A DNA stretch of 64,000 bases from Leptolyngbya sp. NIES-3755. Lineage in GTDB: Bacteria > Cyanobacteriota > Cyanobacteriia > Leptolyngbyales > Leptolyngbyaceae. A program made the translations under genes and the position numbers. Below, piece after piece: positions 52,905 through 56,444 of the stretch. Within the stretch, counting starts at the first letter, position 1, and each line of letters begins with the position of its first letter. Where the stretch lies: the NCBI GenBank assembly GCA_001548435.1, contig AP017308.1, forward strand, positions 5,837,030 to 5,901,029, given 5' to 3'. Under the pieces are notes generated by a model. That model made no database searches, was not told the origin of the DNA, and saw only the letters and a list, made by a program, of their open reading frames with translations.

Positions 52905-53204
52905 CTACTTTGCTGCTTGCACAATGCCAGTTACCACCCGACGGCAGCCCTCACCCGCAGAAGTATTGTCCTTGGTGTAAGTTCGTGCAGCTTGCACATC
53001 CACTTTTGCCGTCAGAGCAGAACCCAGTTTTTCAGCTTGCTCAGGCGTGAGAACCTTCGCTGCAACAGCCGCATCTGCCGCCTCGCAAGCTCCAGCAAGT
53101 TTCCCGCCATCTGCTCCGAATGGTTGTCCCCGAAAGTAACCAAACCCGCCTCCAATCATTAAGCCGACTAATGCTGGAATGAAAATTGCTGCGATCGTTT
53201 TCAT
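52905..53204 (-). CDS. Small glycine-rich envelope protein, LTPEQ family (copy 1)
   Basis: 99 aa: hydrophobic helix (about 4-25), then a soluble part with two Cys (GACEAADAAV ... GEGCRRVVTG) and the motif LTPEQAEKLG. It is a paralogue of the protein encoded just upstream (LITPDQAEKIG, two matching Cys). The motif recalls the LTxxQ signature of CpxP/Spy chaperones, but length and fold differ. Probably periplasmic with a disulfide. Confidence 0.72.
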   Translation of the reverse strand: MKTIAAIFIPALVGLMIGGGFGYFRGQPFGADGGKLAGACEAADAAVAAKVLTPEQAEKLGSALTAKVDVQAARTYTKDNTSAGEGCRRVVTGIVQAAK

Positions 53205-53234
53205 CAGATGTACCTCGTAGATTCTAAGAGTTAA

Positions 53235-53543
53235 CTAACCTTGAGTTGCGCCTTTACGGAACTGTTTACACGCTGCTCCCGCATTCGGTGGTTCAATGCG
53301 AAGTACTGATTTAACATTGTCTCCTTGCTGCGTTTTCTGTGCTTCTTTGACGAACGCGACTCCAATTTTTTCAGCTTGGTCAGGCGTGATGAGTCCCTGG
53401 TTTGCAGCCGTGTCCACAGTGGTACACAATCCATTGATCGTCCCAGTGACCGCACCAGAAACAAATCCGCCCCCAAATCCCAACCCAAAACCGATTCCTG
53501 TTCCGATCGTTCCGAATACAAACATCAAAATGATGCGTCCCAT
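53235..53543 (-). CDS. Small glycine-rich envelope protein, LTPEQ family (copy 2)
   Basis: 102 aa: N-terminal Gly-rich helix (IGTGIGFGLGFGGGFVSGAV) and soluble tail with LCTTVDTAANQGLITPDQAEKIG and GAACKQFRKG. The Cys spacing and the LITPDQ block match copy 1, from which it is separated by 30 bp; a tandem duplication is likely. Confidence 0.72.
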   Translation of the reverse strand: MGRIILMFVFGTIGTGIGFGLGFGGGFVSGAVTGTINGLCTTVDTAANQGLITPDQAEKIGVAFVKEAQKTQQGDNVKSVLRIEPPNAGAACKQFRKGATQG

Positions 53544-54998: not shown

Positions 54999-55228
54999 CA
55001 TTATTCTGAGATCGTGGCAGTAAGGTCAATGCAGAGCTTCTCTAAAAAGCTAACGGGCACAATCACCGGACACAAATAGCATTTACAACTCACTGATCGC
55101 TTGACTTTGCTCCAATGAATTGGGATTGTTGGGCGGTTCGCACGTTAAAAACTTTTTAGCTCTAGGTGTTACGAAACGATGGTTTATTACGACATACCAG
55201 TAGAAGCCTATCCCCAAGGAGTCTATGG

Positions 55229-55828
55229 ATGAATTTTCTCTCACTTTACCAGCCCAGTCCGAGGCGGACAGACTCTGCTATGCAGTCGGATGAGACTTTA
55301 CCTCAAATCGCACAACGCGACTCAGCCGCATTTGCTGAACTTTACCGCCGAAACCTCAGAGCAGTCTACCGTTACCATTTCTCAAGAGTGAGTAATATCG
55401 ATGATGCTCAAGATTTGACGGCTCAAACGTTTTTGGCAGCCCAAGAAGCAATCTCAAGCTTTCAAGGGCGAGGAAAGTTCTTAACCTGGTTGATGGGCAT
55501 TGCCTCTCGTAAGGCTGCTGATTACTTCCGTCGTAAACGGATTACTTTACCGTTAGAAGCAGCAAGGCAGGTCGAAGATCACTCAATTGCACCCGAAGCA
55601 TTTGCCAATCAGCAATTGTCTTTAGAGCAGGTTGCTCAAGCATTGCGTCATCTCACTGCTGATCGAGCCGAAGCGATCGCTCTGCAAATCTTTAGTGGGT
55701 TGAGCGTTGCTGAAGTCGGGCAGATCATGGGGAAAAGCGAGGCGGCTGTCAAAATGCTCGTTTGTCGCGCCCTGAAGGATCTCCGTAAACATCTAGAAAC
55801 AACTTGTGAGTCACCCGATGAATTCTAA
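55229..55828 (+). CDS. ECF-type RNA polymerase sigma factor
   Basis: 199 aa from the ATG at 55229, AAGGAG seven bases before. Sigma-2 spans about 30-95 (FAELYRRNLRAVYRYHFSR, DLTAQTFLAAQEA) and sigma-4 about 135-190 (LSVAEVGQIMGKSEAAVKML). No sigma-1 or sigma-3, as in ECF factors. The stop overlaps the anti-sigma start by 11 bp. It should turn on a regulon in response to envelope signals. Confidence 0.92.
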   Translation: MNFLSLYQPSPRRTDSAMQSDETLPQIAQRDSAAFAELYRRNLRAVYRYHFSRVSNIDDAQDLTAQTFLAAQEAISSFQGRGKFLTWLMGIASRKAADYFRRKRITLPLEAARQVEDHSIAPEAFANQQLSLEQVAQALRHLTADRAEAIALQIFSGLSVAEVGQIMGKSEAAVKMLVCRALKDLRKHLETTCESPDEF

Positions 55829-56444
55829 ACCCAATCAATCTCGTTCATTTTCTCAAGCAGATGCCGATCTGTTATCTCGTTTGAGCGATCTCGCAAAAAC
55901 CATTGAGCCGGAGTCAATCTTCCAGGCTGAACTTGAAACTAAACTGCTACAAGCTCATCGTGCCAATTCACCCACGAATCGATCCAAAGGAGCCAATCGA
56001 ATGACCGTTAAATTTCGTGGGTTCGATCGTCGCACTTCACTCGTTGCTGGGTCATGTGTTGCACTCTCAATTGCTTTGATGATTCCCGCCTTCAGGTCAA
56101 GGCAAGTTACGGAATGGCTCAGCGCAATGCTCAACTCGACCGTGGCATCAAAAGTAAATGCACAGACCATTGCTAGCGCACAGGCAGCAGGACAAATCAT
56201 CTTTCGAGCAGATGCGACTGAGTATAATGAGAAGACTCAAAAGGTTCGGGGAATTGGCAACGCCTCTTTCGTGTATCCAGAAGCGCAAATTCAGGCAAAG
56301 GCTGAGGAGCTTCAGTTTGTCTCTACATCAGACAAAATTTCTCTCCTCGGTAACGTTCAAATTTCTCAGAAGGGAGAAACTTTACGAGGCAAACAAGCCA
56401 TTTGTTCACTTGAGCAGAAGCAGTGTACCGTGACACAAAAGTAA
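55818..56444 (+). CDS. Anti-sigma factor with LptA/OstA-like periplasmic domain
   Basis: 208 aa from the ATG at 55818. Residues 1-70 are a cytosolic helical part (FSQADADLLSRLSDLAKTIEPE) fit for binding sigma; one helix spans about 74-91. The periplasmic part (about 126-204) has the repeated pattern of LptA/OstA beta-jellyroll proteins (IIFRADATEYN, VRGIGNASFVY, ISLLGNVQISQKGETLRG). LptA carries LPS across the periplasm, so the domain may read LPS transport. The fusion of an anti-sigma with this domain is unusual; the link is inferred from sequence pattern alone. Confidence 0.72.
   Translation: MNSKPNQSRSFSQADADLLSRLSDLAKTIEPESIFQAELETKLLQAHRANSPTNRSKGANRMTVKFRGFDRRTSLVAGSCVALSIALMIPAFRSRQVTEWLSAMLNSTVASKVNAQTIASAQAAGQIIFRADATEYNEKTQKVRGIGNASFVYPEAQIQAKAEELQFVSTSDKISLLGNVQISQKGETLRGKQAICSLEQKQCTVTQK

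Follow-up and report, generated by a model that had tools for sequence, protein, structure and literature searches.

LptA-type domains normally carry lipopolysaccharide (LPS) toward the outer membrane. The housekeeping LptA is a soluble periplasmic protein with a signal peptide, and its gene lies beside lptB; in LptC a jellyroll comes after a single membrane helix at the N-terminus. In regulation, the closest described systems are two pairs built around membrane-anchored anti-sigma factors. RsbN of the Streptomyces BldN-RsbN system is a class III anti-sigma factor (ASDIII) (PMC7406223, PMC8103513), in which a single-pass anchor and a short helical cytosolic segment serve a BldN-like ECF sigma factor. 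In the RpoE-RseA-RseB and AlgU-MucA-MucB systems the anti-sigma factor also resides in the membrane and its periplasmic side may read LPS: RseB and MucB, which have a lipid-binding domain similar to that of LolA and LolB, the carriers of lipoproteins, bind LPS and control the cleavage of RseA and MucA (PMC7400510, PMC3944529). How free LPS would reach RseB in E. coli has yet to be settled (PMC8103513). Within the literature searched, we found no description of an anti-sigma factor with an OstA/LptA domain.

The locus studied here lies on the forward strand of a 64,000-nucleotide stretch of DNA from Leptolyngbya sp. NIES-3755, hereafter referred to as the window. It consists of a gene for a BldN-type ECF sigma factor with 199 amino acids (55229–55828) and a gene for a membrane-anchored anti-sigma factor of 208 amino acids with an LptA-like periplasmic domain (55818–56444), the latter as judged by its open reading frame, Pfam and a structural model. 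The two reading frames share 11 nucleotides if the anti-sigma factor starts at the ATG at position 55818; a GTG at 55806, upstream of this ATG, is an alternative start. The sigma factor contains regions 2 and 4 (Pfam Sigma70_r2, E = 7e-15, and r4_2, E = 5e-11) without region 3, as is typical of ECF sigma factors. Its top NCBIfam model was the BldN family TIGR02952 (E = 6e-32, under the equivalog cut-off of that model), the top match of its profile in the PDB was 6dxo, an ECF sigma factor (E = 5.5e-25), and BldN was the closest among the solved structures. The partner thus shares with the class III (RsbN-type) anti-sigma factors both a gene adjoining that of a BldN-type ECF sigma factor and, by prediction, anchoring in the membrane via one helix. 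No conserved neighbours besides the pair were seen in the window and the related loci, and neither the list of open reading frames nor Pfam revealed a separate RseB partner gene adjoining the pair in the window. Elsewhere in the window, on the reverse strand (52905–53543), two adjacent, similar-looking small proteins of 99 and 102 amino acids are encoded; both begin with a hydrophobic stretch rich in glycine, contain the motif TPEQAEK/TPDQAEK and have no confident family.

The cytosolic segment of the anti-sigma factor (residues 12–49, 55851–55964) carries the motif IEP..xF..xLE..LLQA and, in a profile-profile comparison, matched the N-terminus of sister anti-sigma factors having another sensor (probability 97.1, E = 6e-11). 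AlphaFold2 modelled two cytosolic helices with low confidence (13–29 and 33–49), whereas RsbN has three. No sequence match to RsbN or to any known anti-sigma factor was among those listed for this segment, for which the model is of low confidence. The segment is followed by a single hydrophobic helix at residues 74–92 (56037–56093), which is the hydropathy maximum of the protein (mean Kyte-Doolittle 2.04) and is conserved in the relatives; the model places it at 71–91 with low pLDDT. The membrane-proximal periplasmic segment (residues 93–123, 56094–56186) contains an AQT that is invariant in the alignments, and the model adds further low-confidence helices at 95–105 and 113–122. From the alignments, this stretch probably represents the junction with a captured LptA domain.

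The remainder of the protein (residues 124–208, 56187–56441) is an LptA-like jellyroll, which we propose to be the sensor. It scored 22.6 bits against PF03968 (LptA/LptD_N, cut-off 20.4), and the LptA model TIGR03002 matched with E = 1e-6, under its own cut-off. The LptC family model TIGR04409, with a cut-off of 38 bits, gave no more than 15.2, and PF06835 gave no match. A profile made from 28 cyanobacterial LptA sequences of the LptB-linked type yielded 70.8 bits for the window domain and 55–71 bits for all 10 relatives, whereas the best of 10,000 shuffles reached only 11.7 bits, indicating that the likeness to LptA is not due to chance. The two OstA-like motifs pointed out by the first-pass annotation are indeed present, GNASFVY at residues 147–153 and LLGNVQISQKGETLRG at residues 176–191. 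AlphaFold2, run on ten aligned relatives, produced an all-strand domain of seven strands with pLDDT 78–90 over residues 131–208. All 20 Foldseek matches with E ≤0.001 were Lpt proteins, including LptA, LptH, LptC and LptD, with LptH and LptA on top. VIA-align gave Z values of 13.7 for LptD, 12.3 for LptA and 10.8 for LptC over 83–98 residues, and 5.9 for the first unrelated row. The predicted periplasmic fold is LptA-like, the outcome on which the first-pass annotation had made its claim depend. The architecture that it proposed, an ECF sigma factor with an anti-sigma factor made of cytosolic helices, one membrane helix and an LptA-like domain, is supported by the family models, the fold search and conservation; its idea that such a domain could detect free LPS or a blocked transport bridge stays a hypothesis.

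Although homologous to the housekeeping LptA in domain and fold, the window protein differs from it in being membrane-anchored and fused to a cytosolic segment, in having its gene paired with a sigma factor gene instead of that of LptB, in an extra pair of cysteines, and in lacking the last strand of LptA (QVESIY.. in cyanobacterial LptA), before which the protein stops in 10 of 10 relatives. It shares with LptC the N-terminal membrane helix preceding a jellyroll and differs from it by the cytosolic segment as well as by the score under the cut-off of the LptC model. Compared with BldN-RsbN, the partner differs in carrying the jellyroll, and compared with RseB and MucB, which are separate LolA/LolB-like proteins, in the fusion of an LPS-carrier domain to the anti-sigma factor itself; common to the latter systems and the window pair is a carrier-like fold as sensor, a proposed one in the window pair. 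Both architecture and pairing are well supported, and the protein is best read as a membrane-anchored anti-sigma factor akin to RsbN of the BldN system, its periplasmic sensor being an LptA domain that was captured.

In three genomes (G336, G020 and G121), the partner encoded after a related sigma factor has a membrane helix, a cytosolic segment homologous to that of the window protein and a C-terminus resembling DUF4367, which is above the cut-off in two of the three. These sister anti-sigma factors (L053, L054 and L058) have the sigma partner and the promoter in common with the window protein, but their periplasmic domain is another one and they are extended at the N-terminus. In a further genome (G189, L055 2069–2380) the partner is a 103-residue protein with the anti-sigma segment and without membrane helix or sensor. 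The homologous N-terminus combined with different C-termini among the sisters indicates that the C-terminus is an exchangeable input module, the sensor having been swapped.

Upstream of the sigma gene we found, by upstream alignment and pattern search, a conserved ECF-type promoter (55167–55196, forward strand) consisting of a –35 element TGTTAC (55167–55172), a 17-bp spacer and a –10 element CGACATA (55190–55196). TGTTA[CT]-N17-CGA precedes all 12 related sigma genes compared, none of the 12 had it with a spacer of another length in the range 10–25, and the block stands out as conserved within an upstream alignment that has otherwise diverged. A common TGTTAC-N17-CGA promoter implies autoregulation by this sigma subgroup, and the sigma gene of the window is probably autoregulated, as judged from these sequences. 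With regard to the regulon, a search of six genomes with the exact pattern at spacings of 16–18 recovered mainly the sigma factor's own promoter, with extras at chance level. In two genomes (G000 and G258) the own promoter was the sole exact match, no further copy stood out near lpt genes or elsewhere, and weaker matches were not in excess of those to a reversed control pattern. In both of these genomes, which belong to one genus (L090 and L071, near 1501–1530), a promoter-like site with three and two mismatches, respectively, lies downstream of the same gene, about 400–500 bp before a gene for a zinc-type (metal) ABC binding protein. A search of plasmids gave no match.

A scan of 84,980 species identified nine loci, all cyanobacterial, using two short peptide patterns that more distant fusions elsewhere could escape; a genome search added others. 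Counting each locus once, eight pairs are intact (the window, L031, L033, L034, L035, L036, L037 and L006); they fall in several cyanobacterial families, and the two genes overlap or abut in all eight. Three loci have decayed. In one (L032, 5101–6000, from FACHB-502, identical with L004) the sigma gene has been lost except for its final codons, which persist immediately before an intact anti-sigma gene, and transposase-like sequence lies upstream; the other two (L038 and L039) are truncated remnants without sigma factor. Apart from these three, the full-length relatives retain both membrane helix and sigma partner, as the first-pass annotation required of its proposal. Conservation of the pair in cyanobacteria, which it suggested checking, is seen in the eight intact loci, but the pair is rare and patchy. 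It occurs in 6 of the 291 genomes sampled from the class (about 2%) and in 3 of the 42 from the family, most LPS-making cyanobacteria among the genomes sampled are without it, and this is not a general cyanobacterial system. The pair is under purifying selection, with dN/dS between the window and L033 of about 0.12 for the sigma factor and 0.17 for the sensor.

Next to LptB, the genome also encodes its own housekeeping LptA, with which the captured domain shares 36% identity; an LptC is present too, and LptD has a weak candidate. We built a tree of 41 domains, in which the proteins with the sensor formed one clade (100/99) and LptB-type LptA another (97/94); long branches make the exact position uncertain. 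Since the sensor proteins lie in one clade apart from LptB-linked LptA, a single capture suffices, and the tree is consistent with a single capture of the LptA domain. Solitary secreted LptA-like proteins were considered as donor and rejected, as they do not group with the sensor clade in the tree.

We estimate a probability of about 0.5 that the pair is an autoregulated two-gene envelope-stress switch, its signal most likely being the state of LPS export. Inhibition of the sigma factor, the ligand, proteolysis and the regulon are what we infer, in the following manner. By analogy with RsbN (PMC7406223, PMC8103513), and from homology and pairing, the short cytosolic helical segment would bind the sigma factor and keep it at the inner membrane. 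The partner would span the membrane once and end in the periplasm with the captured, shortened jellyroll, which, by analogy with RseB and MucB (PMC3944529, PMC7400510), probably senses off-pathway LPS or the state of the Lpt bridge. Engagement of the jellyroll by such LPS or by a free edge of the bridge would alter the stability of the inhibitor, probably via regulated proteolysis; the genome has four M50 site-2 protease candidates. The freed sigma factor would then transcribe its own operon plus further targets. That an anti-sigma factor which captured one of the carrier domains of the Lpt bridge would by itself read off-pathway LPS or a broken bridge and turn it into transcription, without a separate RseB-like sensor, is a tentative view, to which we assign slightly less than even odds.

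A shortened domain without the last LptA strand may not be able to hold lipid. Such a seven-strand domain would be a dead-end unit with one docking edge and, being anchored by one N-terminal membrane helix like LptC, could use its free N-terminal edge to pair with LptC, LptA or LptD, so that loss of the partner and not lipid triggers release. We regard this as possible though distinctly less probable; it is compatible with lipid binding, and the two are not exclusive. A redox sensor, in which the disulfide state of Cys196 and Cys203 sets anti-sigma activity, seems unlikely. All 10 of the 10 relatives have both cysteines (C-x6-C, 56403–56426), with which the jellyroll ends; they flank the turn between the final two modelled strands, and LptB-linked LptA has Tyr/Phe in their place. 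However, secreted LptA-like proteins that are not anti-sigma factors (L007, L010 and L098) carry the same pair, and a structural disulfide therefore fits better; from the sequence, the pair may serve structure, as a disulfide, or redox sensing. One of these secreted proteins (L010, 1213–1884, reverse strand) also contains the RodZ C-terminal domain PF13464, and no sigma gene was seen alongside it. A general reporter of envelope damage, with some other amphiphile as ligand (for instance a glycolipid, a carotenoid or a compound acting on the envelope), appears quite unlikely: the domain has diverged well from LptA, and sugar-headed detergents can substitute for LPS on MucB (PMC7400510), but no evidence indicates any particular alternative ligand. 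Finally, the segment has no Pfam anti-sigma match and we infer the inhibition, yet a merely co-transcribed protein, with the sigma factor controlled otherwise, is very improbable given the gene order kept in eight loci and the homology to the product adjoining every intact close sister sigma factor examined.

How cells sense failing LPS export is an unsettled question. A sensor made of the transport domain itself would be compact, so that two genes would suffice to test the ligand, the contact with the bridge and the output. The exchange of an LptA-like for a DUF4367-like end, or the reverse, on homologous anti-sigma segments behind the same promoter illustrates how new inputs get attached to an existing sigma switch. 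If the preferred reading is true, the cell may gauge the construction of its outer membrane with the very carrier of its cargo.
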